From Candidimonas sp. (lineage in GTDB: Bacteria; Pseudomonadota; Gammaproteobacteria; Burkholderiales; Burkholderiaceae_B): a DNA stretch of 51,821 nt. Under the pieces are notes generated by a model. It was not told the DNA's origin and searched no databases. It saw only the letters and a program-made list of their open reading frames with translations. A program made the translations under genes and the position numbers. How positions within the stretch are numbered: position 1 is the stretch's first letter; each line of letters opens with the position of its first letter. Shown here in pieces: positions 20,141 to 43,729 of this stretch. The stretch is from the NCBI GenBank assembly GCA_004298545.1, contig SCQX01000185.1:1-51821 (forward strand). Reading direction: 5' to 3'.

Positions 20141-20147
20141 CGTGCCG

Positions 20148-24079: not shown

Positions 24080-24161
24080 GAGTAACCCGTCTCCTGAAAA
24101 CCGCGCCGCCGCACGACCCCCCGTCCGGCGCCGCCGCTCGTCCGGCGCCAACAGGTCGTGT

Positions 24162-24167
24162 ATTATA
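24162..24167 (-). promoter_or_regulatory. -10 box for lptD-surA-rsmA
   Basis: A perfect TATAAT on the minus strand, with an overlapping TATTAT on the plus strand (24161-24166), in the lptD/amgK gap. The -35 regions are poor in both directions. It may serve the divergent pair; for amgK it would leave almost no leader. Confidence 0.4.
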
Positions 24168-24174
24168 AGAGACT

Positions 24175-25239
24175 ATGCTTAGCGCGAACGCCTCGGGGGC
24201 CAACAACCAATCCACCGCGCGATTTGCGGCGCTTACCGCCTGGCTGGAGGCGCTTGCGCCCCAGCACGAACTCAAGATCGAGACACTGCGCGCCGCGTCG
24301 CACGATGCAAGCTTTCGCCGCTACTTCCGGCTCGACACGCGCACCGGCACAGTCGTCGCCATGGATGCCCCGCCACCGCACGAAGACTGCCGGCCGTTCG
24401 TGCACGTTCGCGGGCTGCTGAGCAACGCTGGCATCAACGTGCCCACCATCCTGGCGCAAGACATTTCGCAAGGCTTTCTGTTGCTGTCAGACCTGGGGCC
24501 ACGAACTTACTATCAAGCCATTGAAGCAGGCCTGGACGATGCCGCATTGCAGCGAATCTACCGCGAGGCGCTGAACGCGCTGGCGCGCATGCAGCACGCC
24601 GCCACGACCGATCTGCCACACTACGACGAAGCGCGCCTGCTCGAAGAGCTGGCGCTGTTTCCCGACTGGTACATCGCGCGGCACTGCAAGGCGACACTCA
24701 GCGCCGACGAGGTCAACGCGTTGCAAAACGCATTTCACCTGCTGGCGCGTGACAACGCGGCGCAGCCGTCGGTATTCGTTCACCGCGACTTCCATTCCCC
24801 CAACCTCATGCTGTGCGACGGTGACCGCTTCGGCACCAATCCCGGCATCATCGACTTCCAGGACGCGCTTCGCGGCCCCCTGACGTACGACCTGGCCTCA
24901 CTGGTGATGGATGCGCGCACGACCTGGGAAGAATCCCAGCAACTCGACTGGGCCATCCGCTACTGGGAACAGGCACGCGCCACCGGCCTGCCGGTTCCCA
25001 CCGACTTCGCAGAGTTCCACCGCGCCTACGAGTGGATGGGGCTGCAGCGCAATCTGCGCATCCTCGGTGTGTTCGCCCGACTCTCGCATCGTGACGGCAA
25101 GCACGACTATTTGAACCATATGCCGCGCGTCAACGCATACATTCGCCAGGTGGTCGGGCGCTACTCGGTATTCCGCCCACTGCTGCGGTTGTTCGACCGG
25201 CTCGACAACCGGCGGGTCAGCGTGCGCTACACCTTCTGA
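24175..25239 (+). CDS. amgK: N-acetylmuramate/N-acetylglucosamine kinase AmgK
   Basis: AmgK (354 residues) phosphorylates MurNAc at the anomeric carbon in the peptidoglycan-recycling route that bypasses de novo UDP-MurNAc synthesis. It has the aminoglycoside-phosphotransferase fold: SHDASFRRYFRL near the N-terminus, the catalytic loop VHRDFHSPNLMLCDG and the metal-binding IIDFQDALRGPLTYDLASLV. The assignment rests on these motifs and on the partner murU directly downstream (1-bp overlap), both divergent from lptD as in Pseudomonas. Confidence 0.9.
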   Translation: MLSANASGANNQSTARFAALTAWLEALAPQHELKIETLRAASHDASFRRYFRLDTRTGTVVAMDAPPPHEDCRPFVHVRGLLSNAGINVPTILAQDISQGFLLLSDLGPRTYYQAIEAGLDDAALQRIYREALNALARMQHAATTDLPHYDEARLLEELALFPDWYIARHCKATLSADEVNALQNAFHLLARDNAAQPSVFVHRDFHSPNLMLCDGDRFGTNPGIIDFQDALRGPLTYDLASLVMDARTTWEESQQLDWAIRYWEQARATGLPVPTDFAEFHRAYEWMGLQRNLRILGVFARLSHRDGKHDYLNHMPRVNAYIRQVVGRYSVFRPLLRLFDRLDNRRVSVRYTF

Positions 25240-25922
25240 TGCGCGCCATGATTCTGGCGGCGGGGCGCGGCGAACGCATGCGCCCGCTGAGCGACACGCT
25301 GCCAAAGCCACTGTTGCCGGTCGGCGGCAAACCGCTGATTGTCTGGCATATCGAGCGCCTCGTACGCGCCGGCATCACGGAAATAGTCATCAACCACGCC
25401 TGGCTCGGGCATCTGATCGCCGCTGCCGTGGGCGACGGCTCACGGTTCGGCGCGCACATTCTCCACGTGCCCGAATCGCCCGCCCTGGAGACGGCCGGCG
25501 GCATCGCGCACGCACTTGGCCAACTGGGAAACGACCCCTTTCTCGTCATCAACGGTGACATCTGGTGCGATTGGGATCCCGCAAAGGCCGGTCGTGCGAC
25601 CCACACGCTGGCGGCAAGCGACCGCGCGTGGCTGCTGCTGGCGCGCAACCCTCCCCACCATCCCGGCGGCGACTTCCATCTGGACGCGAACGGGCGAGTG
25701 GTGGCTGGCGGCGCGGAAACGCTTACTTTCACCGGTATCGCCATCTATCGACCGGAATTCTTCCAAGGCGTCGATCCCACATCGCCCGCCCCGCTGGCAC
25801 CCCTGCTGCGCCGCGCCATACGGCGCGGCGAGGTGCGGGGGGAACGCCACGCCGGACTGTGGATGGACATTGGCACACCGGAGCGCCTGCGCGAGCTCGG
25901 CCGCCTCCTCGAGGCTCTCTGA
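25239..25922 (+). CDS. murU: N-acetylmuramate alpha-1-phosphate uridylyltransferase MurU
   Basis: MurU (227 residues) converts MurNAc-1-phosphate and UTP to UDP-MurNAc, feeding recycled sugar back to peptidoglycan synthesis. The nucleotidyltransferase signature AAGRGERMRPLSDTLPKPLLPV is at the N-terminus, followed by ETAGGIAHALGQL and the metal-binding VINGDIWCDW. WMDIGTPERL is the conserved C-terminal motif. The ATG shares a base with the amgK stop codon, so the two are almost certainly co-translated. Confidence 0.92.
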   Translation: MRAMILAAGRGERMRPLSDTLPKPLLPVGGKPLIVWHIERLVRAGITEIVINHAWLGHLIAAAVGDGSRFGAHILHVPESPALETAGGIAHALGQLGNDPFLVINGDIWCDWDPAKAGRATHTLAASDRAWLLLARNPPHHPGGDFHLDANGRVVAGGAETLTFTGIAIYRPEFFQGVDPTSPAPLAPLLRRAIRRGEVRGERHAGLWMDIGTPERLRELGRLLEAL

Positions 25923-26778: not shown

Positions 26779-27087
26779 CTACGTTCCGCTGGTGAGCGTC
26801 CCGTCGCGCGTATCCGCGCCTTCCACACTGCGCAAGTCCGCACCCTCGCCCCCCACATCGAGCAGGCTGGCCAGGAACGGCCATGCCGCTACCGCGGCGG
26901 CAAGCGCCACTGGTTCCTGGCAATCGAAATAGGCGCTGGCGTCGATGCCGGGCGAGTGCGCGGCCAGGCGCCTGATGTCGCCGGCCCCCGAGCCACTGGC
27001 GGACGCGTCGCCGCCAGCCATGGCGGGTGGCGTCTTGCGCGGCGGCACGCTGCTCGCCCGCGATGAGTCGTTGGGCTTCATCGTCAT
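26779..27087 (-). CDS. bcsR: BcsR-like cellulose biosynthesis protein
   Basis: This 102-residue protein ends the cellulose operon. Its middle (SPGIDASAYFDCQEPVALAA then AVAAWPFLASLL, about residues 45-77) resembles the core of E. coli BcsR, LPDIDYADISQREQLAAALK followed by RWPLLAEF. BcsR is a short regulator that binds BcsQ within the inner-membrane complex. A Ser/Gly/Ala-rich N-terminal stretch and a C-terminal tail make it longer than E. coli BcsR (62 residues). The ATG at 27087 overlaps the bcsG stop (ATGA); a second ATG lies two codons later. The assignment is a motif judgement supported by context. Confidence 0.62.
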   Translation of the reverse strand: MTMKPNDSSRASSVPPRKTPPAMAGGDASASGSGAGDIRRLAAHSPGIDASAYFDCQEPVALAAAVAAWPFLASLLDVGGEGADLRSVEGADTRDGTLTSGT

Positions 27088-28643
27088 TTCTCCGCGACCC
27101 AATCGCCCGACGTGTTGCGCATGACATAACCCTTGGGGGTCTGCAACGTGACCGTACCCTCGTTCTCCCCCACCATCGGCGTGCGCGGCAGGTCGGTGGC
27201 GTAGTGGATCAGGGGCGGCGCATCGGGCCGGAACGGGCTGTCTGCAACCAGGTTTGCCAGCAACTGCGCCAGGGCGAGGTAGCTGGTGTGCTCGCGAATG
27301 ATCTGGGTGGGGCCGCGCGTGCCGGTGAAATTGATCAGCCGCACCCCCACAGGAATATTGATGATTTTCGGGGTGGGGATGTCACGCAATCCCGCGATCT
27401 GGCCCGAATCGCCGTCCAGCGCCGCGCCATGTTCGGGCACGAAAACCAGCACCGCCTTGCGACCGGACGCCTGGATGACATCGGCGAACCGGTCTATTTC
27501 ATTCATCAGCTTATTGACCCGCAGGGGGTACGATTGAACGCTCGTGAGGTTCGAATCGGGCAAGTGGTTGCCATCGTGCATCGTGATGGTGTTGTAATAC
27601 AAGGCAACCGGACCGGCGACCGACTGTCGGTTCTTCCACCAGCGGTCCAGTGTGGCGAAATCATCGCGTATGGGCGATCCGTCGAAAGCCTGCATGGCCG
27701 TCGGCACGCCTTCGAGCGACATGGGCTTGACGTCCGGCACCTCGATGTTGCGCATGACGTCGCCGATGAAATCGTCGAAGCGGCCATCGTGATTGAGCGC
27801 AACCTCGGGCGTATAACCCTCCTGCTTCAGGGTCGACATCAAATAGCACCCCTGTGGCGCCCGCTGATACAAGTCTTTGTGCGGCGCCTGCCCGCAATCG
27901 GCACGCAGCAGCCGTATGGCCGCCGGCCCGCTATAGCTCACCGCCGAACTGAAATTGGTGAACAAGTAGTCGAAATGGCTCAGCAAAGGATTGTGCAGCG
28001 CCTTGGCCGCTCTGAGGTCGTCCCAGGCGAGTGAGCAGATGTGGATCAAAATGATGTCGAAACGGGCGCGCGTGTCGGCCGGCTTGAAGCTTACCTTACG
28101 CGTCGCCTCGGTTTGCCGGAACCGGGCCAGGAATCCATCGTAGTCGCCGGCCGCGACCATGGGCTGGGCACCCGCGGGCGCGGGCACATTGGCCATCGCC
28201 ACCGTCACCGGGCGCGAAAGCGCGCGCAATTGCGTCTCGGCGGACCGCCACACGGGCAACACCAGAAAGGCGATCAAAACAAAGGTGCTCACGCGCACCC
28301 AGCGGTTTATCACGAAGTACGCAACCAGGGCGGCGGCGGCGCCCGCCAGCAGGGTCGCCGGGAAAAACCGGCTCGCCAGTTCCAGCAGATAGCGCGTGTC
28401 GAACTTCATGATGCCGCCGAACTGCTCGACCAGATGGGCGAACGGCGGCAGCGTCGATTCGTAATACATCAGCGGAAACGCGACGGCAAGCCCGGCCAGC
28501 GCCCGCACGACACGCAGCCAGCGCCGTCGCAGCGGAACGATGAGCACGAGGATGAAAAGCAGATTCACCCCCCACAGGGGGACCAGCGACCCCTTGAAGT
28601 AAAGGTACAGCTTCAGCAGAAAATACAGATTCCAGCTTGCCAT
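27084..28643 (-). CDS. bcsG: Cellulose phosphoethanolamine transferase BcsG
   Basis: BcsG (519 residues) transfers phosphoethanolamine from phosphatidylethanolamine to C6 of cellulose glucosyl units in the periplasm. The N-terminal 150 residues hold about five membrane helices (YFLLKLYLYFKGSLVPLWGV, VNLLFILVLIVPL and others). The alkaline-phosphatase-like domain keeps the residues known from E. coli BcsG: the zinc Cys in ICSLAWDD, the nucleophile Ser in the SYSGPAAIRLLR segment, CGQ, the zinc His in HDGNHLPD and the Glu-His of VPEHGAALDGD, then GLRDIPTPKI. It starts 15 bp after bcsA and overlaps the bcsR-like gene. Confidence 0.93.
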   Translation of the reverse strand: MASWNLYFLLKLYLYFKGSLVPLWGVNLLFILVLIVPLRRRWLRVVRALAGLAVAFPLMYYESTLPPFAHLVEQFGGIMKFDTRYLLELASRFFPATLLAGAAAALVAYFVINRWVRVSTFVLIAFLVLPVWRSAETQLRALSRPVTVAMANVPAPAGAQPMVAAGDYDGFLARFRQTEATRKVSFKPADTRARFDIILIHICSLAWDDLRAAKALHNPLLSHFDYLFTNFSSAVSYSGPAAIRLLRADCGQAPHKDLYQRAPQGCYLMSTLKQEGYTPEVALNHDGRFDDFIGDVMRNIEVPDVKPMSLEGVPTAMQAFDGSPIRDDFATLDRWWKNRQSVAGPVALYYNTITMHDGNHLPDSNLTSVQSYPLRVNKLMNEIDRFADVIQASGRKAVLVFVPEHGAALDGDSGQIAGLRDIPTPKIINIPVGVRLINFTGTRGPTQIIREHTSYLALAQLLANLVADSPFRPDAPPLIHYATDLPRTPMVGENEGTVTLQTPKGYVMRNTSGDWVAEK

Positions 28644-28658: not shown

Positions 28659-31313
28659 TCACCGCCTCGATATTCCGCTGCGGCTTGGCAAAAAGGGCAG
28701 CCAGCCGGCGCGCAACGTATCGGCGGCCAATCGGAAATAACCAAAGACACTCGCGCGCACCACGCCCAGCATGCTCGCCAGTATGTGTTCCGGGTCGTCC
28801 CGCGCGCCTTGATCGATCCAGGCGTCCGCTCGCCCGAACGTGCACCGGACCAGATCCCGCTCCTGCGCGAGCGTCAACGCTTCGAAGGCAACACCGACCT
28901 CATCACCCGCGATACGCGCAACGCGCGCGGGGAAATATTTTTCTCGATCGCCCAGCGCGAGCCCGACGCCAACGGGCATGCCGACGACCAGCGTCGCCGC
29001 ATCCGCCAAAGTCAGCCCTAACCCGCTCAGGGCGTAATCGAACGTCTCCGCGGCCACGACGCGGCCATCGACGAGTGCCAGCAGCGCGGGAATACGCGCG
29101 GGCGAACGATGCGAACCGCGCGCCTGGCGCGCCTCGCGCGCCACGGAAATTGCAACGCCCAGCATGATCAGGTTATAGGCCGTCCAGAATAAATTGATGA
29201 GCACGGTGGACGAATCGTTCACGTTCCACCAGAAATACCGCGCGAGACCGACCGCGAATGCAATCACGTTGACAGTCGCAAGCGCAATGTAAGGCAGTGA
29301 AATCTGCCAGTCGCGATAACCTTTCGCGATGTTCCGCCCCTTATTCGTCACATTGAATTTGCCATGGCGCGGGCTCAGGAACGCCAGTGTGGTCGGCAGC
29401 ACCACGTACCACGCCAGCACCGACTCGTACACTTCAGCCCAGAAAGAATGGCGGTAGCGCCCCTGAATGCGCGAACTGGCGATGTTGGCCAGCACCAGAT
29501 GCGGCAGCACGAACGACGCCAGGGCCAGCGCCGACGCATCCAGAAAGTAGAGCTGGAACAACAAGTACGCCGTTGGCATCAACAAGAAGACCAGGCGTGG
29601 GACACCATAGAAGAAGTGCAACATGGCGTTGCTGTAGCACAAGCGCTGCGCAAACGTCAGCCCCTTCCCGAGCAAGGGATTGTCCACACGGAAAATCTGC
29701 GCCATGCCGCGCGCCCAGCGTATGCGCTGACTGATGTGATCTGCCAACGTTTCGGTTGCCAGGCCGGCGGCCTGTACCGTGGACAGATAGGCTGAACGAT
29801 AGCCGAGCCGATGCAGCCTGAGTGACGTATGGGCGTCTTCCGTAACCGTCTCGGTTGCAATGCCGCCGATGCGTTCCAGCGGCGCACGCCGGATGACGGC
29901 GCAGGAGCCACAGAAAAAAGCGGCGTTCCACAAATCGTTGCCATCCTGCACCAACCCATAGAACAAGCTGCCTTCTTCAGGCACGCGCCCGCCCGTGCCA
30001 AGGTTGCGCTGAAACGGATCCGGTGAAAAGAAATAATGTGGCGTCTGTACCAGCGCGCAGCGATCGTCGGCCACCATCGCGCCCAGGGTAGCTTGCAGGA
30101 ACGAGCGCACGGGCACATGGTCACAGTCGAAAATGGCCACATAGTCGCCGCAGGTCTCGCGCAAGGCATGATTGATGTTCCCCGCCTTGGCGCCCTGGTT
30201 GTCGTCGCGCGTGACGTACCCGACCCCGGCCTGTGCGGCGAATGCCCGGAATTCTGGCCGTTTGCCGTCGTCGAGCACGTAGACTCTCAGACGATCCGCC
30301 GGCCAGTCCATGCTTTGCGCGGCATAGACGGCTGGTTTGACGACGGAAAGCGCCTCATTGTAGGTGGGAATGAAGACATCCACCGACGGCCACCGCGCAA
30401 CATCGGGCGGCAATCTGGCTGCGGGCCGCTCGAGCGGCCAGATCGTCTGCAGATAGCCCAGCAGCAGCACCAGCCAGGTGTAGCACTCCGCCAGATAAAG
30501 GGCATAGCCGACGAACGCCTCGGTCACCCCAGGAAACTCGAGCGTCTGGGTGGTGCGCCACCACACATAACGGGCGGATGCGCTCAGCGACAGGGACACC
30601 AGCACCAGCATGGCCAGGCGCCCCGGTATTTTGCGGATCAGCAACGCCAGGGCCAGCACCACCCCGAAAAATGCCATCTGCGGCCACGGCGGCAGCGGCG
30701 TCGTCACGGCAACGATCACCACGCCGACGCCCAGAAGAGCAAGTACGATGGCGATCGGCGCGAAGCGGCCGGACCACGTCACGCCCGCCTCGATGATTTG
30801 CGCGCCGTGTGCGCGGCGCGACGCCGGCATCAGCCAATTGAACGCGGCATGCAGCCCAGCGGACAGCCAGCGCAGTGGCCCGAACAGCGCGCGAACCCCG
30901 TTTGCGCCTGCCACCCCTATCGGCAGGGTCGATGGCGGACGTACGAAGAACCGCCACATCCACTCACGGCTCCGACGAATTTCGCGTACGCCGAGCCGGC
31001 GGGCAAGCGAGTGCACGGCCGCAACGATGGCGGTGCGCAACCGATCGGGCCGACCGCGCCGCGGCGCCTTCACAAACAGCCGCAACAGCCAATCGAACCA
31101 GAAGGCGTCGGGCGGAACGCCCAGATTGCCCGCACCGCGCGTCACGAGCGCGCGCAGGGTCATCCGCACCCAATCCGGCCGGCCCGGCATCGGCGCGCGT
31201 AAGAAAAGACGCAGCACCCAAATGGACAGTCCGGCGCCTGGCGCCACCCCCAGCGCCAAGGCAACACGCGGCTTGAAGCGAGCGCGTGGCCGAAGCGTCG
31301 CATAGCGCGCCAT
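28659..31313 (-). CDS. bcsA: Cellulose synthase catalytic subunit BcsA
   Basis: BcsA (884 residues; E. coli 872) is the processive inner-membrane GT2 synthase that polymerises UDP-glucose and threads the glucan through its own channel. The E. coli-like N-terminal extension (about 1-200) and membrane helices precede the catalytic domain: DVFIPTYNEAL (about 317), DDGKRPEF (about 348), FDCDHVP (about 394), TVTEDAHTS (about 491) and QRIRWARGM (about 530). The C-terminal PilZ domain has the c-di-GMP Arg motif RGSHR (about 734), but its DxSxxG motif reads DYALSG (about 758), with Ala for Ser. The start at 31313 lies 1 bp after the bcsQ stop. Confidence 0.95.
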   Translation of the reverse strand: MARYATLRPRARFKPRVALALGVAPGAGLSIWVLRLFLRAPMPGRPDWVRMTLRALVTRGAGNLGVPPDAFWFDWLLRLFVKAPRRGRPDRLRTAIVAAVHSLARRLGVREIRRSREWMWRFFVRPPSTLPIGVAGANGVRALFGPLRWLSAGLHAAFNWLMPASRRAHGAQIIEAGVTWSGRFAPIAIVLALLGVGVVIVAVTTPLPPWPQMAFFGVVLALALLIRKIPGRLAMLVLVSLSLSASARYVWWRTTQTLEFPGVTEAFVGYALYLAECYTWLVLLLGYLQTIWPLERPAARLPPDVARWPSVDVFIPTYNEALSVVKPAVYAAQSMDWPADRLRVYVLDDGKRPEFRAFAAQAGVGYVTRDDNQGAKAGNINHALRETCGDYVAIFDCDHVPVRSFLQATLGAMVADDRCALVQTPHYFFSPDPFQRNLGTGGRVPEEGSLFYGLVQDGNDLWNAAFFCGSCAVIRRAPLERIGGIATETVTEDAHTSLRLHRLGYRSAYLSTVQAAGLATETLADHISQRIRWARGMAQIFRVDNPLLGKGLTFAQRLCYSNAMLHFFYGVPRLVFLLMPTAYLLFQLYFLDASALALASFVLPHLVLANIASSRIQGRYRHSFWAEVYESVLAWYVVLPTTLAFLSPRHGKFNVTNKGRNIAKGYRDWQISLPYIALATVNVIAFAVGLARYFWWNVNDSSTVLINLFWTAYNLIMLGVAISVAREARQARGSHRSPARIPALLALVDGRVVAAETFDYALSGLGLTLADAATLVVGMPVGVGLALGDREKYFPARVARIAGDEVGVAFEALTLAQERDLVRCTFGRADAWIDQGARDDPEHILASMLGVVRASVFGYFRLAADTLRAGWLPFLPSRSGISRR

Positions 31314-31314
31314 A

Positions 31315-32070
31315 TCAGACTCCCGGCGCCACCGGCGCGCACAGCCAATCAGCCAGTTCCCGCAGGTCGTGCGCGGCCTGCGATCGCGGGCAGGCATCGA
31401 AACAGTACTGCCCCTTGGCGTACGACTCGGGGATGCTCGCGTCCTCATGCACCCGCGGCGTCATCACCCGCTCGCGCCCCAAGCGTGCCCGCAACAGCGC
31501 CAGCACGTCGTAATGCAGCGGACGAGCGGGATGGACGCCATTGGCCAAAATGCGAAACGCACGGTTTGCGCACCGCTGCGCGTCGGCAAACCGCAGCAAT
31601 GCCGCGCACGCCACAGGCTCGGGGCGCGTCACACAAATCACCTCGTGCGCGCTGCGCATCGCCAGCGCCGCCAGCGTGCCGGGGAAGCGCGCGGCATCGA
31701 GCAGCACCATGCCATGGTCCGGCAAATCGATTTGCGCAATATGCGCACTCAGCCAGCCCGGGTCGGCTGCCAGCCGACCTTCCAGATCGAGAAGCCGATC
31801 CGCATCCAGATCACCAAAGGGAACGAAGAGTACGCCATCGGCGCTGCGATACGTGGCGCCGCGCCACGGGCTCCCCCCGTCGAGCGCGCGTGACGCGAGG
31901 CCGGTGGCTGGTGCTCGCGCAAGGCCCAAAAAAGTGCCCAGTACATTCTGGGGATCCAGCTCGACGACGACCACGGGCTGTGCCGCGCGAGCCAGAAGCA
32001 CCGCCAGCGCGGACACCAGGGACGTCTTGCCAACGCCGCCACACACCGACACGAAGGCAACGATCTTCAC
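31315..32070 (-). CDS. bcsQ: BcsQ, ParA/MinD-like ATPase of the cellulose complex
   Basis: BcsQ (251 residues) is a MinD-family ATPase that sits at the cytoplasmic vestibule of the synthase and is required for type II cellulose secretion. The P-loop is VCGGVGKTS (K15): the invariant P-loop Lys is kept, but the family's signature Lys (KGGVGKT) is Cys, comparable to Arg at that place in E. coli BcsQ. VVVVELDPQN is the switch region and LLDAARF the Walker B area. It starts with GTG overlapping the bcsF stop (GTGA). Confidence 0.88.
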   Translation of the reverse strand: MKIVAFVSVCGGVGKTSLVSALAVLLARAAQPVVVVELDPQNVLGTFLGLARAPATGLASRALDGGSPWRGATYRSADGVLFVPFGDLDADRLLDLEGRLAADPGWLSAHIAQIDLPDHGMVLLDAARFPGTLAALAMRSAHEVICVTRPEPVACAALLRFADAQRCANRAFRILANGVHPARPLHYDVLALLRARLGRERVMTPRVHEDASIPESYAKGQYCFDACPRSQAAHDLRELADWLCAPVAPGV

Positions 32071-32258
32071 ACACGGTCCTCCAGTTCATTGCGCACCAGC
32101 CGACCCTCCACGACCACCGCGGTCCAGTTCACCGCAACGATTTCGTCGCGGCGCAGCACCGCCAGAGTGGGCGGACGGAGCCACAGCAGTCGGAACAAGA
32201 TCCAGAGAACCGTCCCAACGGCCAGCCCCACGGCAAAACCATAGGCAATCAGCATCAT
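32067..32258 (-). CDS. bcsF: BcsF, small membrane protein of the cellulose complex
   Basis: This 63-residue protein has one membrane helix at its N-terminus (LIAYGFAVGLAVGTVLWILF) and a polar C-terminal half ending in a charged tail. Its length, topology and place directly behind bcsE match E. coli BcsF (63 residues), which recruits BcsE to the membrane; sequence identity itself is too low to prove it. The ATG at 32258 overlaps the bcsE stop, and the stop overlaps the bcsQ GTG, so it is translationally coupled on both sides. Confidence 0.72.
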   Translation of the reverse strand: MMLIAYGFAVGLAVGTVLWILFRLLWLRPPTLAVLRRDEIVAVNWTAVVVEGRLVRNELEDRV

Positions 32259-34051
32259 GACGTGTGCCTCAGCGTGATGCGCAGCGGCATCGTGACCGGC
32301 ACGGCGCCCCGCGCACCCGCGCGACTGGGCGCCGGCGCCGCGGCGGGCGGCACTCCCGGCTGCGCGCCCTCGCACCGAACGGACGCCGATGCCGCGGCGC
32401 GCTCGGGCGCGCGCATCATCAAGACATCGGCCGACTTGCCCGTCCGGGGCGGAAAATTGGCCGTGGACGCCGTGTGCGCCAGAACGTCACTGTAATCGGC
32501 CGCTGGCTGGCGGCATTCGGAAGCCATCAACTGCGACACATGCTCGCCAATGTTGCGTAGATGGGTGACCTCATCGAAAAACGCCGACAATGGCTGCGCG
32601 AATACGCGTTGCAGCACGCGATCGACGTCCGCTTCCGGGCAGGAGAACAAAAACAGGTACAAACTGTCGGCGTCGGCCGTGCAGACATCACCATGACGCG
32701 ACAGCCGGCACGCGCGCAGCGCCGACAAATGGCCCGCCTGAGCGCGCAACCGCAATTGGACGATCACGTGAGGCAAAGGCAGGGCACGACCACGCTCGAG
32801 AACCCGCGCCACGTGCTCGCAGAAGCGCGCCATGCTCAGGTAGCCACAGGATTCCTCTGCTGTCGCGGCCGCCAGCGTGGCATGGTAGTCGCTGGCGATG
32901 GGGCCGGTGAAACGCTGCTCTCGCACCAGGCCGATGAGTATCTGGAGCCGCGAGAACGATACCTCGCGTCCCGCCACCATGTTGATACCCAGATTGCGCA
33001 GCAGAAGCTCGTGCTCATGACGCAGCGTCCAGTGGCACTCGCGCACGACGATGCCAATCTTCCGCCCGCAGCGCTGCCGCACATCGCACACGGCCCGGCA
33101 CAGCCCTTCGAAATCTTCCTGTCCCGCATAGGCGAACAGCGCCACGGCATTGCCACCCGGATGGCACGCGGCGGCCAATGCGTCGTTGTCTTCGAATACC
33201 TCGTAGTTGGGTGGCAATTGCGCCTCCGACTGCACCGCGGCGCGCGCCGCCAGCAGCCGCCCGGCACGCCGTGCGAGGCGCTGCGCGGTCTGATCCGCGC
33301 TCACCGCCAGCACCCGCATCGCGCCATCTTTCCCACGTTCCAGCGGCCACTCCGTCTCCATCTCGGGCGCATCATTCCAGAACTGCGTCCACCACGATAC
33401 GTCACCGCCCGTCCGCAGCAAACACGCCACGCCATCGAAACGACGCTCCGGCACCCGCCCGCCGCGCACCGCGCCGTGGAAATCATCGTCCGCCTGACCC
33501 GCGGCGGCGCCACGGCCATGCGGGCCAAGCACGAAGACGACACAACAGCGCCATGTGCGTGACCAATCGACCACATAATCCATCTGCGGATTCATGGCCG
33601 CGCCGTCGTCCCAGTCAAACCAGCCGTCCGCCCCTTCCACGATGACCAGGGAGCCGGGCGGCACGCCAAATTCCAGCAGGGACGCAAGACCACCAGCCAG
33701 CCGCGCCAAGGGCGATGCCGACCCCGCGGGCCGCGCGGCCGCGACCGCCGGAGGTGCTGCAAGGACGTTCAATGACGCGGGCCAGCGCCTCCCTGGCGAT
33801 GCGCCGGTTTGTCGCGCCCGCACCGCTGCGGCCGCCTGTTCCGGATCGCGGGCCAGCGCAAGCACCACACACTCCGCCGAGGACGTCCGCGCCACACCGA
33901 AGACCAACGCGTCACGGACGTCGGACGGATCCGCATACACCAGGTAAGCCCCGACGGCGCGCAGCGTTGCCACCCGTTCCGGCAAGCCGACGATACCCAG
34001 GTGAGCGCAGTGCCGGTGCTTGCGGCGGCGTGTCGAAAACAAAGCAGTCAT
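32255..34051 (-). CDS. bcsE: BcsE, c-di-GMP-binding cellulose regulator
   Basis: BcsE (598 residues) is a cytoplasmic c-di-GMP sensor that boosts synthase assembly and activity. Order: an N-terminal degenerate ATPase-like domain (about 1-220), a receiver-like domain (about 225-390, with VREQRFTGPIAS) and a GGDEF-like domain (about 395-530). The last contains RHGD in CRLSRHGDVC (about residue 450), matching the RxGD I-site through which E. coli BcsE binds c-di-GMP. A Pro/Ala-rich tail follows, probably the BcsF/G-interacting region. It begins 46 bp after the bcsC stop, the widest gap inside the operon, so an internal promoter is possible. Confidence 0.86.
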   Translation of the reverse strand: MTALFSTRRRKHRHCAHLGIVGLPERVATLRAVGAYLVYADPSDVRDALVFGVARTSSAECVVLALARDPEQAAAAVRARQTGASPGRRWPASLNVLAAPPAVAAARPAGSASPLARLAGGLASLLEFGVPPGSLVIVEGADGWFDWDDGAAMNPQMDYVVDWSRTWRCCVVFVLGPHGRGAAAGQADDDFHGAVRGGRVPERRFDGVACLLRTGGDVSWWTQFWNDAPEMETEWPLERGKDGAMRVLAVSADQTAQRLARRAGRLLAARAAVQSEAQLPPNYEVFEDNDALAAACHPGGNAVALFAYAGQEDFEGLCRAVCDVRQRCGRKIGIVVRECHWTLRHEHELLLRNLGINMVAGREVSFSRLQILIGLVREQRFTGPIASDYHATLAAATAEESCGYLSMARFCEHVARVLERGRALPLPHVIVQLRLRAQAGHLSALRACRLSRHGDVCTADADSLYLFLFSCPEADVDRVLQRVFAQPLSAFFDEVTHLRNIGEHVSQLMASECRQPAADYSDVLAHTASTANFPPRTGKSADVLMMRAPERAAASASVRCEGAQPGVPPAAAPAPSRAGARGAVPVTMPLRITLRHTS

Positions 34052-34097: not shown

Positions 34098-37000
34098 TCA
34101 AAAATCGGAATAGGGATCCACCGCGCTCGGTGGGTACTTCACCGGCCCTTTGTCGGGATTGAACAGATAGCGGAAATACAGCATTGCCGTCGACGGCGCG
34201 TTGTCGTGCGAACGATCGATGGAAAAGCTCACCCCCACCGCCAGACGGGAGGTCAGGTTGTATTGGAGAACGCCGCCCAGCGAATACGAGAAGCCCCCGC
34301 CGGGGCCGCCGCTATGCACGAGGTTGCCGGATGCCCGCTGGAGCTGGGGAGATGTCGGGTAGAACGGCGAGTCGGATTCATAGGTGTTCGAATACCCCGC
34401 GGAGCCTCGCAACTCCCAGGACGCCTTGCCGGCGCGGCCCGACCAGCGCAGCGGCACGCCAACCGACAGGTAGCGCTGCGGGCTGTAGTAACCGCCCTGG
34501 CCGAACGTATAGAAATCCAGGTTCCTGGAATAATGCCAGTAATTGCCGATGAGCCCGCTTTCCAATCGCCAATTCCGGGCCTGAGCCACTGGGACGATGA
34601 CGCCGGTGCGCAGCTCGAATGACTGGTTCGTCTGCACATTGCGCCCCGTGTAGACGTATCCGCCAAGCTGCGCGAAGGCGGTGGCCGTTCCCACGTCGCG
34701 CGACACGCGCACATCGGCGCCAGTTTGCACCACGCCGCCATACGCCTCGCCGCTGACGGGGTCGCGCACCCCGGCGTACGACAGCACACTGCCGGTCACC
34801 GCGCGGCGCGACAGATTGAGTCGCAGACCTACATAATCGTTGGGGAAAACGACGCGTATGCCGCCGACGATATTCGTTACCGGAAACCCCACCGGTGTGG
34901 TGCCGAGATCCACGCGCCAGTCATCGGCCTCGAACCCCGCCCCCAGCGCCACGCCGGTCGCTTTTGTATGCAACGATTCCTTCAACGGCGCGCCCACGCC
35001 CCCGTTGGGCTGCGCCGCAAAGGTACCCAGGGATTTGCGCGCATACGAATCCGACGGGTCCAGCGTTCCGGCGTCGAGTTTCACCCCATCGACATGAATC
35101 AGCCAATGGCCGAGGTAGCCCTGCGGGATCCGAACCTGCATGGGCGCTTCAACCGCGCGATAGAGCGACACCCCCGCCGTACCGCTGTTGTAGGACGGGC
35201 TGACACCCGCCTCGACCAGGGGCTGGCGCCGCAACTCTAGCGCATCGAGGGCGCGCTGCGCCGAGGTACCGGCGGGCCCCGCGGTGACGCCTTCGGATGA
35301 TTCCTGCGCCAGCGCCCGCCGATAATCGACCTTCGCCAGATCGTACTGGCCGAGCGCCTCGCGTATCTTCCCCTGCTCGACCATGATGTCGGAACGCGCG
35401 CCAAGGCGGTCCTGCAGCGCATCCGTCACGGTGGCGGCCTCGCGCGGGCGTCTGAGCGCCACGAAACGGCGCGCGGCCGACAACCTCACATCGACGTCCT
35501 CCGGCGGGGCCTGGTCCACGACACGGCGCACCAGCGTCAGAGCCTCCCGCCGGTCTCCATCCTGCTCGAGGATCCTGGCCAAGGTGAGCTGGACGTCCGG
35601 GTCATCGGGATTCCGCGTCAAGAGAGGCGCCAGGGCCGCTCTTGCCTGCGCGTAGCGGCCCTGGCTGCGACGCAGATCCACAAGCTCCATGATCCAGCGC
35701 GGATCGGCGCGTAACGCGGGGTCCGCCCGGTACAGGCGCCGTTCCGCCAAATCATAGTCATCGTCGGCCATCGCCGCATCGGTCAGGCGCAGCACGCGCC
35801 TGAGGCTTTCATCATTGAGGCGCTTGGTCTGCTCGCGCGTGAGATTGGGGTTACGGGCAATGTCATCGAGCCACACCCTCAAGGCCTCTTCACGTCCCGC
35901 GTTGGCCAGCAGATCGCCCTGGCGCAGCCGCACGTCGACTTGCGGATCGGCCGGCGATGCATTTTTCCGCAGCCAGCCCTCCAGCAGGGCGAGGCCGCGA
36001 TCGGCATGTCCCTGAACGATCCACTGGTTGCCGATCGACGCGAGAATGTACGGGTAGTCCGGCACGAGGGCCGCCGCATTTTCAAGATTCTTTTCACTGT
36101 CCGCGCGGTCACCCCGGCGATACCGTGCCTCGGCGTCGGCCAACAGCCGGCGCGCCCGCAGACTGCGGTCCAGGGACCGCATCGCATCGGTGCGTTGCGC
36201 CGCCGGCACGCGATCGAGCGCGGCCTGCGCCCCCGCGCCATCGTTCTGCGCGTCCCGGTACAAAGCTGTCGCATAGCTCATATCTGCGCGGTCGAAACGC
36301 CGGAAGCCCTCTTCCATGACCGAACGCCCCATCTGCGGCAGACCCATTCGGCTGTATGCGCGCGCAAGCGTATAGCGCGTCCACGCCGCCCCCGGGTCGT
36401 GCCGCAGCGACGCTTCAAGCGCCCGTATCGCCGGCCCGGTCTTGCCCTGCGCCAGCAGCCGCTCCGCCTCATCCGCGAACTGCCGGGCGCGCAGGCGCTC
36501 CAACGCTTCAAGCCTCTTGCCCGTGAAGCGTTTCTCCAGTGCGGCCATCAACGCGCCGACCTCGTCCGAACGCCCCTGATTGCGCAACAGTTCCGCCATC
36601 TGTTGCACAGTGCCAACCGTCACATCGGCGCGCGCCAACTCGCGGCGCAACAGCGGCTCGGCCTGACCCCATTTTTTTTGCGCCAGCAGCGCGTCGACGA
36701 GCAGGCCGGACGCGGATTCATTGCCCGGCTGCTGGGCAAGCGCCGCGCGCGCATAACGCTCCGCCTGCGCGGGCCGGCCCTGATCGGCCGCGTCGCGCGC
36801 CTGCTTGATGGTTCCCCAGAACAACGCGGTTTGCGCCAGGCTTTCCCACTTGCTCCGGCCGTCTTCATCCAGGCGCGCGGCTCTCAGGAACAGGGTACGC
36901 GCCTCCATGTGTCTGCCCTGGCGCATTCTGATCACCCCTAACCCCCCCAACACCTCCGGGTCATCGGACCGCCCCTTCAGCGCCTCTTCGAGCAACGGCG

Positions 37001-37997
37001 CCGCGGCGACACCACCGGTCTCGTCCAACAGGCGCAGCCCTTTTTGCCGCGCCTGCCAGTACGGATCGGCGGCGAGTGCCTCCTGGGCGGCCAGCCGCGC
37101 TTCCGCCGCCTTCAACTGGTCCCGGAATTCGGTGTCGTCGGGCACCACGGCCAAGTAAGTCTTCAGCGGAACGATGTAGGCCGGATCGCCGCCGGCGGCG
37201 CGCAATACCCGCCGCCAGACATTGAATGTCGCCGAGCGGTCGGCGTAGGGGTCGCGCGATACCCGCTGCACGATGCGCAGTGCCCGCATGCGGGTCGACG
37301 CTTCGCGGTTGAGCAGGCTGGCCAGCGTCAGCGAGGCGTCGGTATTGTCCGGGTTCGCGGCCACCAATTTTTGCAGTGCGGCAATCGCCACGGGCCGATC
37401 GGGTGGATTTTGCGCCAGCGTGTCGTAATAGGGCCCCGCCAGCGCACCCGTCGGCGGCCCGAGCGGGAACAACGCCTTGAGCTGGCGTATCGCATCGGCC
37501 GGATCGCTTCCCCCGGCGAGGCGCTGAACCGTCGCGAACTTCTGTTTGTCGGGGCCCGCCATGCGATACGCATAGTCGAGTTCGCGCGTCCCGCTTGCCG
37601 TCGGGCTCGCGGCCCTGAGCCGCGCCAATAGGCGGGCAGCGTCGGTCATGCGCCCCATGCGCACCTCGATCTGACCCAGACCGGACAGCGCATCGGAGTC
37701 TTCCGGAAGAACCAGCAAGGCCTTCTTCAATTGTTCGATGGCAAGGTCATCGCGACGATGGTGAACCCAGTATCTGGCACTGGCGACCAGCTCGTCCACC
37801 GTGCCCTGCGCGGCGGTGGCGGCCGGGTCGGACGCGTTCTGCACGAGCGCGCCAGGCTGGCGGGCCGCGCCGGCGGGCACTGGCTCGGTGGCGCCCGCCG
37901 CCACACAAGGCGCCAGCAACAGGCCCACCCACGCCAGGCGCCGGGCCGCCGGCGCCGCGCGATAAAGAGCCCACGCGAGCATCTCCCGTGCAATCAT
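34098..37997 (-). CDS. bcsC: BcsC, cellulose export outer-membrane channel with TPR scaffold
   Basis: BcsC (1299 residues; E. coli 1157) conveys cellulose through periplasm and outer membrane. A signal peptide (about 1-36, WVGLLLAPCVAAGA) precedes a long array of TPR-like helical repeats (about 60-915; for example DALSGLGQIEVRMGRMTDAA and PEVLGGLGVIRMRQGRHMEA). The C-terminal barrel begins near 925 (PLVEAGVSPSYNSGTAGVSL) and ends in Phe, as outer-membrane barrels do. AAGGGG before the ATG at 37997, which overlaps the bcsZ stop, decides the start. Homopolymers A8 (coding strand, 36672-36679) and G7 (36943-36949) lie in the TPR part. Confidence 0.93.
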   Translation of the reverse strand: MIAREMLAWALYRAAPAARRLAWVGLLLAPCVAAGATEPVPAGAARQPGALVQNASDPAATAAQGTVDELVASARYWVHHRRDDLAIEQLKKALLVLPEDSDALSGLGQIEVRMGRMTDAARLLARLRAASPTASGTRELDYAYRMAGPDKQKFATVQRLAGGSDPADAIRQLKALFPLGPPTGALAGPYYDTLAQNPPDRPVAIAALQKLVAANPDNTDASLTLASLLNREASTRMRALRIVQRVSRDPYADRSATFNVWRRVLRAAGGDPAYIVPLKTYLAVVPDDTEFRDQLKAAEARLAAQEALAADPYWQARQKGLRLLDETGGVAAAPLLEEALKGRSDDPEVLGGLGVIRMRQGRHMEARTLFLRAARLDEDGRSKWESLAQTALFWGTIKQARDAADQGRPAQAERYARAALAQQPGNESASGLLVDALLAQKKWGQAEPLLRRELARADVTVGTVQQMAELLRNQGRSDEVGALMAALEKRFTGKRLEALERLRARQFADEAERLLAQGKTGPAIRALEASLRHDPGAAWTRYTLARAYSRMGLPQMGRSVMEEGFRRFDRADMSYATALYRDAQNDGAGAQAALDRVPAAQRTDAMRSLDRSLRARRLLADAEARYRRGDRADSEKNLENAAALVPDYPYILASIGNQWIVQGHADRGLALLEGWLRKNASPADPQVDVRLRQGDLLANAGREEALRVWLDDIARNPNLTREQTKRLNDESLRRVLRLTDAAMADDDYDLAERRLYRADPALRADPRWIMELVDLRRSQGRYAQARAALAPLLTRNPDDPDVQLTLARILEQDGDRREALTLVRRVVDQAPPEDVDVRLSAARRFVALRRPREAATVTDALQDRLGARSDIMVEQGKIREALGQYDLAKVDYRRALAQESSEGVTAGPAGTSAQRALDALELRRQPLVEAGVSPSYNSGTAGVSLYRAVEAPMQVRIPQGYLGHWLIHVDGVKLDAGTLDPSDSYARKSLGTFAAQPNGGVGAPLKESLHTKATGVALGAGFEADDWRVDLGTTPVGFPVTNIVGGIRVVFPNDYVGLRLNLSRRAVTGSVLSYAGVRDPVSGEAYGGVVQTGADVRVSRDVGTATAFAQLGGYVYTGRNVQTNQSFELRTGVIVPVAQARNWRLESGLIGNYWHYSRNLDFYTFGQGGYYSPQRYLSVGVPLRWSGRAGKASWELRGSAGYSNTYESDSPFYPTSPQLQRASGNLVHSGGPGGGFSYSLGGVLQYNLTSRLAVGVSFSIDRSHDNAPSTAMLYFRYLFNPDKGPVKYPPSAVDPYSDF

Positions 37998-39223
37998 CTG
38001 CTGCCCCTTGCGCACAAATCGTGCCACGATACGACCAGACGCCCGTCCGCTGAAAAGTGAAAACGCCCTTCCTGCCACCCCAGCCCGAACAGACTCAACA
38101 CCTCGCTGTAATAGCCGGGCGGCGTTCGCGCCTCGAGCCGCTGCGCCCTGGCGATCTGCGCCTCGGCCAATTCAGACTCTCCTTCGAACAGCAGAAACGG
38201 CACAACCGCCGCGGAGAAGCCGCCATTGCCCGAATTCTCTCCGGGAACGCCGGTGACCGTATTGACCTCTTCCGGCGGAAAACCGTTATTCCCGATGGTC
38301 TCCGCCATGGGGTGATAGAGCCGCAACAGCCGCGACGCCTGCTGATCCTCGCTCGACAGCATGCCAATCCACAGATACACGCGTATGGCGTTGTACGATC
38401 CTTTGGCGTCCACGTCTTCATCAGGGGCGAACTGGCCGGAACCATCAGCGTACCGGTACAACACCCAATCCGGCGCAAATCCGCGTGGCGCCGTCTCCAG
38501 CAAGATACGCAGCGACGAAGCGACGACGGCGGACCACCGCGGCTGGTCCGGAAGCGCCGCCGCGATCCCCCGCAACACCTGGGGCGGGTAGTAACTGGGG
38601 TTCAGACGCCACGTGGACTTGTCGACATGAAAGCCGGCGGTTCCCGGCAGGATCGTCCAGCCCATCCCGGGAAGCTGTGCGGCCTCATTCGACAAAATGC
38701 GTTTGGCAACCAACCGTCCGAGTTCGGTAAACCGGCGCTCGCGCCACAGGCGGCCAGCCTGAAGCAGGCTGTAGGCGATCCACAGATCCGCGTCCGATGC
38801 GGTGTTCTTGTCGAGCACCGCGAATGTGCCGTCGGCCCGCCGCCCCCACAACCAGGCCGGCAGGCGCTGACCAAGCGCGCCATCCGACAGATAGTCCTGC
38901 GTGGCAAGCAGCAGTTGCTCGAACGCCGGACGGTCATTGGCCACGAGGGCGAAGAACAGGCCATAGGCCTGGCCCTCCGACACCGTGCGCGAATCGGCGG
39001 AACCCAAATCCACCACGCGCCCACTGGTGTCGATGAACTTGCGCTTGAACGCATTCCAGCGCGCCCATGGCATGCACGCCAGCTGCGTGCCACCGCCCGC
39101 CACTTGGCTGCCGGAAGCGGCCACCGCTGCGCCGCCACCGCCGAACACGACGACCAAAACCATCCCGGCACAGGCAGCGCGGCAGTGTGATCGCAACTGG
39201 CGAACCAGGAATTGGCGGCGCAT
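37994..39223 (-). CDS. bcsZ: BcsZ, GH8 endo-beta-1,4-glucanase (catalytic base altered)
   Basis: BcsZ (409 residues) is the periplasmic cellulase of the secretion complex. A signal peptide (AACAGMVLVVVFGGGGAAVAA) leads into the GH8 (alpha/alpha)6 barrel: TVSEGQAYGLFFAL holds the general acid E83 (E55 in E. coli), then DADLWIAY, NPSYYPPQV and the C-terminal SEVLSLFGLGW. The segment that in E. coli BcsZ reads SYDAIRVYLW, containing the catalytic base D243, here reads SYNAIRVYLW with N278. The codon is AAC on the minus strand, so this is not a misreading of the translation. The enzyme may be weak, inactive or use another base. It starts 3 bp after bcsB. Confidence 0.92.
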   Translation of the reverse strand: MRRQFLVRQLRSHCRAACAGMVLVVVFGGGGAAVAASGSQVAGGGTQLACMPWARWNAFKRKFIDTSGRVVDLGSADSRTVSEGQAYGLFFALVANDRPAFEQLLLATQDYLSDGALGQRLPAWLWGRRADGTFAVLDKNTASDADLWIAYSLLQAGRLWRERRFTELGRLVAKRILSNEAAQLPGMGWTILPGTAGFHVDKSTWRLNPSYYPPQVLRGIAAALPDQPRWSAVVASSLRILLETAPRGFAPDWVLYRYADGSGQFAPDEDVDAKGSYNAIRVYLWIGMLSSEDQQASRLLRLYHPMAETIGNNGFPPEEVNTVTGVPGENSGNGGFSAAVVPFLLFEGESELAEAQIARAQRLEARTPPGYYSEVLSLFGLGWQEGRFHFSADGRLVVSWHDLCARGSR

Positions 39224-39226
39224 GGC

Positions 39227-41605
39227 TCAGCCTCCGCGCCGACGCGCGGCGATCGACTGGAACCCGACGAACAGCCCCATGGCAACCAGAATGCCGGCAA
39301 GGACACTGAACACGGCCAGCAGCAGTGGGTGGGCCGCCGCCACCATCCAGACGCGCGCATACCACGGCAAATGACCGACGGTGTATTGCGGCCCGATCCG
39401 CATGGACTGCACCTCACGGTCGCGAACGATGGCAACGTCGCCATCGATGAAACCGCTGGCGCCAGAGTCCGCGAGCACCCGCGAGACATTACGCAGGCTG
39501 GTCGCGTCGGTGCCAATCAGCGCCACGACGCTGCGCGCGGCGTCAAAAGGCGATTGCATCCCCACGATCGCCCCCAGGCCGCCATGCTGATCGAGCGTGA
39601 CCGTGCGCTCGCGCGGCGCCCCGGATGCCCCGGCGCGGCGCTCGACCAGGCTGACCGTGTACGCCTCGGACCCCGCAGGCGCGGAGGCGACACGCTGGTC
39701 GCGCTGTCCATCGCGCTGGCTCGGGCCGGGCCCCGCATGCGCCGCGGCGGTTTTGGCAATGCGCAGCGGCGCCACCCCATTCCACCCCTTCAGCAACGCG
39801 GCCGTGTCGCCACTGCCGATGACGATCAAATCCTTGTCCAGCGGCGCCCTGACCTGGCTCGCACGCACGATGCCGAACCGCAGCGCCGGCAGCCCCGTCC
39901 AGTCGCCCATGTGGCCCAGAACCTCCAGCATCGTTTCAACGTCGGTCGCATCGGGGTGGTCGGGCAGGACCACATCCGTGTCCGCCAGATCGGCCAGCCG
40001 CGTGTACGGGTATCCACTATTGGCGAAGAACGCGAGATTGGGCATCACCGCATAGTGGCCGAGTCCGCTGAAGTCGATCGTGGAATCGGGGTCTATCGCG
40101 GCGCGCGCACGGTTGACGCCAGCCCCGCCGCAAACACCGCTACGCTGCGACTCGAGGGAGAACCTGAGTTCCATCTCGTTGGCCGACCCCACTCGAAACG
40201 ACGGAATGTCGATGAAACTGCTCACGCCCGAACCACTGTCCGTCAAGAGCGGCAACCGGAGCGTTCCGATCACGGGATCGCTCTTCTGGGGGGAGCGCGG
40301 ACTCAACCGATAGGATTTGACCAGCAGGCTGTTGATGTCGACGCTGAGCATCGAATCATTGACCACCGACGGCGCCGTGTAGCGATACTTCAGGTCCAGC
40401 GGTATGCCACGCCCCGACCACTCGAACAAGTCGGCCGGTACCGGCATCTTGATGCGGATCGGGTCGGGCGCGCTGCCCGAAACCTGCAATTGCGCGGGGT
40501 CGTCGACCAGATCCTTGAATTTCACCGGACCATCCATGGACACCCACTTCGGGGCGTCATACGGCTTGCGGGGCGGGCCGATGTCGACCCGGCCAACCTG
40601 CGCGCTGGCGCCGGAAAGCACCATCTGCCCCAACACGAGCCCGTACACCGCGTTCCGGACTTCCGCGTCGTTGCGTCCCAGTATCAATAGAACCTTTCTG
40701 TCGGGCGCGGCTGGATTGGTCCGCACCATGATGGTGGGCCCCTGGATCGGCCCGATCTTCAGAGAAGCCGGCAGGCTGGCCGGCGTGCCCAACAGCACCA
40801 CGTTGTTCGACGTGGGGAAACCGGTGGCCACCGGAAACCGGGCGCCGCGATAACCCGCCAACTTCCCGAACCATGACGCCAATATGCCCGCGCTACGCAG
40901 CAATTCATCATCGGGGGCGCCACCCAGCATGAACGGCAACACCAGGCGCGTATTGTCGTGTTCGTCGAAAAATGGCGCCGGCAGCAATGCCAGATCGTCA
41001 GCCAGCGCCACGGGCCTTTCGTCGATGGCGAGCAGGCTCGACGGGCTGATGTCCGCCCATATCGCCGTATTGGCCGGATCTTCGCAATGATCCATGGTGT
41101 AATGGCCAACCAGCTGCAACGCGATTTGATTGAATCCGGTGAACAGGCGCGGGTCCAGCGCAACATCGACTGTGCTGACTTTTCCGGCATCGTCGGCGGC
41201 CTGCTGGCGCAGCGGAATCGACGCGACGACCTGCTGATTGAACAGCACGCGAATCTGCGAAACCGACGGCAGCAACGCCGGAGAATAGGTGTAGACGAGA
41301 TGCAGGCTCGCCCGTGTGACGACGCGGTCTAGCCGAATGCCCAGGCCAATCACGCCGGTGTCGCGGGTTCCCGTCAACTGTATGGGCCGAAACGCGCCAA
41401 GCCGGGAGAACGGCAAGCGTACTGCGATCGCGGGCTCTGGCGCCGGGGACGCATCCGACACCGCGCGCGTAGCGGCTGCCGGAGATTGGCTCGGAAGCGC
41501 CCGCCCGCGCGCCGTAGGCAACGCCGCGGCCATCGCCAGCGCCACACAGGCGCAAATGGCGAAACGCCGTGGGCGCGGCGTATGGAATCGATCTGACGGT
41601 GCCAT
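39227..41605 (-). CDS. bcsB: BcsB, periplasmic cellulose-binding subunit of the synthase
   Basis: BcsB (792 residues; E. coli 779) stabilises BcsA and guides the nascent glucan into the periplasm. A signal peptide (RRFAICACVALAMAAALPTA) precedes two repeats of carbohydrate-binding and ferredoxin-like domains. A C-terminal transmembrane anchor (HPLLLAVFSVLAGILVAMGL) follows an amphipathic helix and ends in a basic RRRGG. Conserved features include LDRVVTRASLHLVYTYSP, VRVDIGPPRKPYD and GVCGGAGVNRARAAIDPDST. It is the first gene of the cellulose operon, preceded by AAAGAG and the long non-coding region. Confidence 0.93.
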   Translation of the reverse strand: MAPSDRFHTPRPRRFAICACVALAMAAALPTARGRALPSQSPAAATRAVSDASPAPEPAIAVRLPFSRLGAFRPIQLTGTRDTGVIGLGIRLDRVVTRASLHLVYTYSPALLPSVSQIRVLFNQQVVASIPLRQQAADDAGKVSTVDVALDPRLFTGFNQIALQLVGHYTMDHCEDPANTAIWADISPSSLLAIDERPVALADDLALLPAPFFDEHDNTRLVLPFMLGGAPDDELLRSAGILASWFGKLAGYRGARFPVATGFPTSNNVVLLGTPASLPASLKIGPIQGPTIMVRTNPAAPDRKVLLILGRNDAEVRNAVYGLVLGQMVLSGASAQVGRVDIGPPRKPYDAPKWVSMDGPVKFKDLVDDPAQLQVSGSAPDPIRIKMPVPADLFEWSGRGIPLDLKYRYTAPSVVNDSMLSVDINSLLVKSYRLSPRSPQKSDPVIGTLRLPLLTDSGSGVSSFIDIPSFRVGSANEMELRFSLESQRSGVCGGAGVNRARAAIDPDSTIDFSGLGHYAVMPNLAFFANSGYPYTRLADLADTDVVLPDHPDATDVETMLEVLGHMGDWTGLPALRFGIVRASQVRAPLDKDLIVIGSGDTAALLKGWNGVAPLRIAKTAAAHAGPGPSQRDGQRDQRVASAPAGSEAYTVSLVERRAGASGAPRERTVTLDQHGGLGAIVGMQSPFDAARSVVALIGTDATSLRNVSRVLADSGASGFIDGDVAIVRDREVQSMRIGPQYTVGHLPWYARVWMVAAAHPLLLAVFSVLAGILVAMGLFVGFQSIAARRRGG

Positions 41606-42761: not shown

Positions 42762-42989
42762 CACACCGCCTCCCGGGCTCCAACAAGAGGGATACCCCGC
42801 GTGAGCTTCAAAGCCTCTCCGGGTCTTACGCTACATCAACAACAATAGACGTGAGCGTTGTATTGCGAACCGGCCTGAATTACCGTTATTGGCTTGGGAG
42901 CGGGAAACTACGCGTCCTTGCCGCGATACAGCACAACGTTTCCGATACAACGACAGACTGCGGCGGCATGCGCGAAGGAACGGTACGCC

Positions 42990-43718
42990 ATGCAACCCTC
43001 TATATTCTCGATCACGGGTTTCGCCAGGCCCGGCACGAGTCCTGGCCACTCACTCGACCGCCACCGGCAAAGCCGCTGTCCCAATACCGGCGCGGGCCGC
43101 ATCCACCGCTACCGGCTGTTCGCCCTTTCGGTGGCGCTTGCGCTGGCAACCACTCGAGCCGTCAGCGCCGCTCCACCCGCGAAAGCCTCGAATGCCAGCG
43201 TCGAATACGCGACGCAACTCACACCGATCTACAGCGACGCATCGCTGTCACAACAAATCGGAACGCTCTCCCCCAGCAGTGAACTGCATCTTCAGGCCGA
43301 TATCACCCCATCGGCGGCCGAACCGTTCTCCATCGACGGCTGGTTTCAGCAGGGAAACGAGCAATCGCTCTTCCTCGACAAGGGTAAACGCATCGTCGTC
43401 GCGGCACTGTCACGCCCGCCCAAAGGCTATGAAAAGCTGGGTGAGGCGAAGGACGACTACGACAACGTCTGGGTACACGCGCGCCTCAACGCCTACGTGA
43501 ATCCGCAATCGCTGACGGGCGACCAGGCAACCGTGTGGCAACACGCCGCGACCCTGTATCAGGCACGGTGCAGCGCCTGCCACGCCGTGCATAAACCGGC
43601 GGAATTCACGGCGAACCAATGGCCGGGCATTCTCAGCATCATGGCCAGGAACGCCGCGCTGAGACCCGACGAACTGGCGTTGATCACCGAATATCTCCAG
43701 ACGCATGCCAAACCCTGA
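42990..43718 (+). CDS. Periplasmic monohaem cytochrome c, TorC C-terminal-domain type
   Basis: This 242-residue protein has a hydrophobic signal-like core only at about residues 53-70 (RLFALSVALALATTRAVSA), after an unusually long polar N-terminus. A beta-rich domain follows (LTPIYSDASLSQQIGTLSPS to VNPQSLTGDQ), then one haem site C194-S-A-C197-H198 within ATLYQARCSACHAVHKPAEF. TANQWPGILSIMARNAAL is the hallmark of the C-terminal haem domain of TorC/TorY, the electron donor of TorA. The tetrahaem NapC-like part of TorC is missing. AAGGAA is 10 nt before the ATG. The next gene starts 11 bp after its stop, so the two probably form one operon. Confidence 0.8.
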   Translation: MQPSIFSITGFARPGTSPGHSLDRHRQSRCPNTGAGRIHRYRLFALSVALALATTRAVSAAPPAKASNASVEYATQLTPIYSDASLSQQIGTLSPSSELHLQADITPSAAEPFSIDGWFQQGNEQSLFLDKGKRIVVAALSRPPKGYEKLGEAKDDYDNVWVHARLNAYVNPQSLTGDQATVWQHAATLYQARCSACHAVHKPAEFTANQWPGILSIMARNAALRPDELALITEYLQTHAKP

Positions 43719-43729
43719 GGAGCACAACC

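Follow-up and report, generated by a model that had tools for sequence, protein, structure and literature searches.

The question raised by this locus is whether a GH8 endoglucanase encoded in a bacterial cellulose synthase operon can still work when the Asp known as its catalytic base is replaced by Asn. The window, i.e. the whole stretch of 51,821 nucleotides of Candidimonas sp. DNA analyzed here, carries on its minus strand the gene bcsZ (37994..39223), which encodes a GH8 endoglucanase of 409 amino acids with the base-site motif GSYNAIRVYLW. Within this motif the codon AAC (38390..38392, minus strand) places Asn278 where enzymes of subfamily GH8a have their catalytic Asp (Asp243 in E. coli BcsZ, Asp278 in CelA). 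A sequence-only reading of the window had already pointed to this residue, regarded the substitution as exceptional and proposed a slow cellulase, a cellulose-binding scaffold or a relocated base. Reading of the ORF and alignment to the BcsZ proteins of E. coli (3qxf) and Enterobacter (7f81), both of which have Asp at the base site, verified the Asn, and in the alignment of relatives together with E. coli BcsZ it likewise stays at the base position, with no Asp or Glu there in the window enzyme. Entry 7f82 is the same Enterobacter protein as 7f81 with Ala at this site. As GH8a is defined by Asp at the CelA Asp278 site, the window BcsZ falls outside this subfamily.

The protein matches the GH8 family of Pfam (PF01270, 231.7 bits) and the BcsZ equivalog NF008305 (493.4 bits against a cut-off of 299). 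An AlphaFold2 model was obtained with a pLDDT of 88.8 and low confidence for residues 1-45; its best matches among solved structures in Foldseek are the BcsZ entries 3qxf, 9b87, 4q2b and 5cd2, with TM-scores by target of 0.93-0.95. The general acid Glu83 (38975..38977, minus strand) aligns with the catalytic acid, which is Gln in the E. coli entry 3qxq, and is intact as stated in the sequence-only reading. Asp144 of the -1 subsite (38792..38794, minus strand), which we take to be the counterpart of CelA Asp152, is present as well. The GH8 fold, as judged from PF01270 and Foldseek, is thus accompanied by both of these catalytic residues.

The gene is located between bcsB (39227..41605; PF03170, NF008323) and bcsC (34098..38078 as listed, with the true start probably near 37994; PF05420, BCSC_C), which is the operon context of a BcsZ. 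Further genes on the same minus strand are bcsE (32255..34051; PF10995), bcsQ (31315..32070; TIGR03371), bcsA, encoding cellulose synthase with a PilZ domain (28659..31448 as listed, with the true start probably further in; TIGR03030, PF07238), and bcsG (27084..28643; TIGR03368). The order bcsB-Z-C-E-Q-A-G is complete and all seven proteins match their respective families in profile searches, so the earlier statement that the surrounding cellulose genes are intact holds. Beyond the operon, on the opposite strand, a TorA/BisC-type molybdopterin oxidoreductase is encoded (43619-46204, plus strand; profile match), preceded by an ORF (42894-43718) whose product contains a CSACH motif and resembles a c-type cytochrome. 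Downstream of the operon (19337-25922) genes were noted by eye which resemble rsmA, surA and lptD as well as a sugar kinase and nucleotidyltransferase pair of the amgK/murU type.

For the distribution of Asp and Asn at site 278, the 80 nearest BcsZ loci from one-per-species genomes were collected initially; a simple scan detects the motif in 79 of them. Asn occupies the base site in 76 of these 79 loci and Asp in three; the 80th locus (L050), whose motif the scan had missed, was later read as Asp. The 76 Asn loci belong to Burkholderia, Paraburkholderia, Caballeronia, Cupriavidus and Dyella. A second sample, in which the nearest loci were combined with GH8 proteins encoded by 200 genomes from the family to which the window belongs and by 398 from its phylum, comprised 192 non-identical sequences. 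Their base column contains Asp 97 times, Asn 94 times and Glu once, while Glu83 and Asp144 are invariant (192/192 each). The only Glu is found in a gammaproteobacterial GH8 protein (L130, genome G392; PPRFGFEAVR). Rarity of the substitution is ruled out by this survey, and the view of the window enzyme as an exception has to be given up. BcsZ of the Burkholderia type normally carries Asn, as does rhizobial CelC.

In a tree of 134 sequences, calculated with column 278 left out, 11 state changes occur at this site, at least eight of which are forced by well supported branches. The window BcsZ groups, with support, with two Asn-type proteins from another genus of the same family (L086, L091) and with an Asp-type protein from a Herbaspirillum MAG (L020). 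Asp also reappears within the Asn clade, namely in B. guangdongensis (L031), L050 and L052. The dN/dS values range from 0.07 to 0.36 in 13 pairs of Asn-type genes and from 0.08 to 0.23 in six Asp-type pairs. The Asn form of BcsZ is therefore old, recurrent and under purifying selection, and general decay of the operon is ruled out by the dN/dS values together with the intact operon profiles.

A second position accompanies the substitution. In most Asn-type sequences the residue four positions upstream (-4) is Glu or Asp, as in AESAYN of Burkholderia, AEFGYN of rhizobia and SADYGFN of L207, while in Asp-type sequences it is Val, Arg or another residue. Within a set of 146 sequences, all of which carry Glu83, an acidic -4 residue was present in 42 of 59 Asn-type and in 4 of 87 other sequences. 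A test for correlated evolution of the -4 acid with Asn278 gave a likelihood ratio of 26.5, the highest of the roughly 93 variable acidic columns compared; in 200 simulations in which the sites evolved independently the ratio never exceeded 12.9. Several unrelated columns reach likelihood ratios of 13-17, and we therefore rely on the top rank and the simulations alone. Residue 269 ranks second (19.8) but lies within a gapped loop. For the -4 acid there are only eight phylogenetically independent pairs (3.3 versus 0.5 on average), too few for a decision, which is why we turned to the likelihood test and its simulations. The pairing of Asn278 with the -4 acid is found in distant lineages, i.e. 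Burkholderia-type BcsZ, rhizobial CelC, the gammaproteobacterial proteins L207 and L209, and L131. Conversely, all four Asp forms within the Asn clade are devoid of the upstream acid. In the B. guangdongensis BcsZ (L031:8989-10059) both sites have switched, with AQGAYD compared to AESAYN in its neighbors, as it should be if Asp278 and the upstream Glu can stand in for one another.

Two characterized enzymes give this pattern a biochemical counterpart. The GH8 endoglucanase BpEG, purified from Burkholderia pyrrocinia JK-SH007, has 11.2 U/mg on CMC compared to 5.2 for the E. coli enzyme, converts cellopentaose to cellotriose and cellobiose and does not attack crystalline cellulose (PMC6987409). 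Glu83 and Glu271 were proposed as its proton donor and acceptor, based on a homology model and the analogy with the chitosanase of Bacillus K17, and Arg278 was given as conserved (PMC6987409). The spacing of seven between Glu271 and Arg278 matches AESAYNAIR of the Burkholderia relatives, and reading it as E-S-A-Y-N-A-I-R identifies Glu271 with the -4 acid, which had been detected in our alignment before that publication was read. Judged from this spacing and from the Burkholderia relatives, BpEG would carry Asn at position 275. The second enzyme, CelC2 of Rhizobium leguminosarum, degrades CMC and sets the length of cellulose fibrils (PMC3520766). Its close relatives suggest that it is of the Asn type: rhizobial CelC has Asn in 10 of 10 records (Rhizobium, Neorhizobium, Sinorhizobium and Ensifer, including R. 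leguminosarum) and Glu at -4 in nine of them. One of the celC genes, on plasmid pSK06 of R. leguminosarum bv. viciae BIHB 1148 (L227:2319-3252), is split over two frames by a frameshift or sequencing error, while the adjacent gene for cellulose synthase is intact; for the count its base region alone was used.

The upstream Glu is thus probably the base of most Asn-type relatives, as judged from alignment and the proposal for BpEG, and the earlier suggestion of a different base, as in a subgroup of GH8, is favored for them (PMC6987409). The window BcsZ shares with enzymes of displaced base the Asn at the Asp278 site but has Lys274 (38402..38404, minus strand) where the displaced acid, Glu271 in BpEG, is expected, a point which had escaped the sequence-only reading. 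We nevertheless consider it likely that the window BcsZ functions normally as a periplasmic endoglucanase and represents the widespread Asn type, and predict it to be active. It would trim nascent cellulose within the complete bcs operon. In most Asn-type enzymes the base would now be the -4 Glu of the same active-site loop, Asn278 would still hold the catalytic water, and with the base relocated Asp and Asn at site 278 could interchange easily. In the window BcsZ the water may be activated by a different loop carboxylate, namely Asp268 or one of its neighbors, or through Asn278 itself.

The window BcsZ is not alone in this respect, since 10 other dereplicated BcsZ sequences also have neither Asp278 nor the -4 acid; a search of the literature found no activity data for an enzyme without both residues, 5CD2 of Vibrio fischeri included. 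Compatible with our main explanation is the assumption that in the window enzyme the role of the base has passed to one of the carboxylates Asp268, Glu269, Asp270 or Asp272. These belong to the loop Asp268-Glu269-Asp270-Val271-Asp272 (38408..38422, minus strand), which is predicted to lie near the active site and within which the base is relocated in other GH8 enzymes. Of the 11 sequences lacking both residues, 10 have an acid at residue 268 (position -10), the only loop carboxylate so common to them, and it is Asp in 5CD2. However, it is acidic just as often where the -4 acid is present (30 of 31 sequences) and also in 44 of 66 Asp-type sequences, so that it shows no tie to the loss; residue 272 is not associated with Asn278 either (likelihood ratio 3.9), and among the columns of the BcsZ alignment none was found to be acidic specifically in the sequences lacking both residues. 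A takeover by one of these carboxylates is therefore possible but rather doubtful.

Equally compatible with an active enzyme, but unlikely in our view, is that in the enzymes lacking both residues Asn278 itself acts as the base, its imidic-acid tautomer taking part in a proton relay. The model for this is Asn92 of PcCel45A, an inverting cellulase, in which this residue is the proposed base and the exchange N92D drastically lowers activity (PMC5829257). The restriction of site 278 to Asn or Asp in all but one of the 192 sequences would fit this reading, as would the mere existence of 11 dereplicated BcsZ sequences and 5CD2 with neither Asp278 nor the -4 acid. But most Asn-type sequences keep the -4 acid, which would be needless were Asn sufficient, and the folds of GH45 and GH8 are unrelated. 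Hydrolysis of cellulose by BcsZ proteins like those of the window and 5CD2 with Asn278 as the proton acceptor seems improbable.

The third possibility is that the window BcsZ is slow or inactive and retained as a subunit that binds cellulose or serves as a scaffold. Neither of the two known base residues is present, and the window BcsZ has Ala107 (38903-38905) in place of a Trp which is present in 98% of the BcsZ sequences and apparently replaced by Met in L086 and L091. Moreover, the E56A mutant of Salmonella retains some phenotypes, which speaks for a role of BcsZ beyond catalysis (PMC5070118), and engineered base mutants of GH8 enzymes are known from the PDB, e.g., Rex D263N (2drr). Together with Ala116, where all other Asn-type BcsZ sequences have Asp, Ala107 makes a reduced activity of the window enzyme possible. 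However, Glu83, Asp144 and the invariant aromatic residues of the alignment are kept, the genes are under purifying selection, and an inactive enzyme should have let the acid drift, so that the invariance of Glu83 disfavors a loss of catalysis. The neighboring lineage L020 has Asp at 278, which indicates that the site stays functional in this clade. Since BpEG and CelC2 hydrolyze CMC (PMC6987409, PMC3520766) and the Asn type is common, the slow-cellulase and scaffold explanations of the sequence-only reading are disfavored, and we rate such a subunit as an unlikely outcome. A sequencing or assembly artefact or a pseudogene, for which the fragmented assembly of 339 contigs might speak, is in practice refuted, as the frame is full-length, site 278 is encoded by AAC in 89 of 191 sequences examined, and Asn also occurs in genomes of the same family (L086, L091) and in most relatives.

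If annotation required the Asp of GH8a, many active cellulases, among them the enzymes of Burkholderia, Cupriavidus and Rhizobium, would be labeled as dead. The recurrent switching between Asp and Asn, coupled to the -4 acid, represents a natural experiment on the relocation of the base in an inverting hydrolase, and members without both residues, one of which (5CD2) has a solved structure, make the identity of the base directly testable. Should Asn278 be the base, GH8 would join subfamily C of GH45 in using asparagine for this purpose.

Comparison with known systems allows a classification of the window BcsZ. E. coli BcsZ (3QXF) is its orthologue by operon and fold and differs in having the Asp of GH8a as its base. 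Chitosanases of subfamily GH8b, for instance ChoK, have a base displaced upstream and Asn at the CelA Asp278 site; they are distant in sequence and have a longer loop, and the window BcsZ is without their displaced Glu. The grouping of GH8 enzymes into subfamilies by base position goes back to Adachi et al. (2004), a study cited in PMC5407803 and PMC6987409. BpEG resembles the window BcsZ as a GH8 enzyme with the acid Glu83 whose Burkholderia relatives have Asn at the base site, but has Glu271 four residues before the Asn, where the window enzyme has Lys. Rhizobial CelC and CelC2 likewise belong to GH8 and to a cellulose synthase operon; the relatives read carry Asn at the base site, and CelC2 is active on CMC. 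CelC is about 30% identical to the window BcsZ and mostly retains the -4 Glu. The same state of the active site is found in the endoglucanase 5CD2 of V. fischeri ES114, which shares the BcsZ fold (TM-score by target 0.95), the Asn and the missing -4 acid (Val; QSVGSYN), but is 43% identical and known from a crystal structure. The window BcsZ is thus a member of an already known type of BcsZ, and its peculiarity is the missing second residue.
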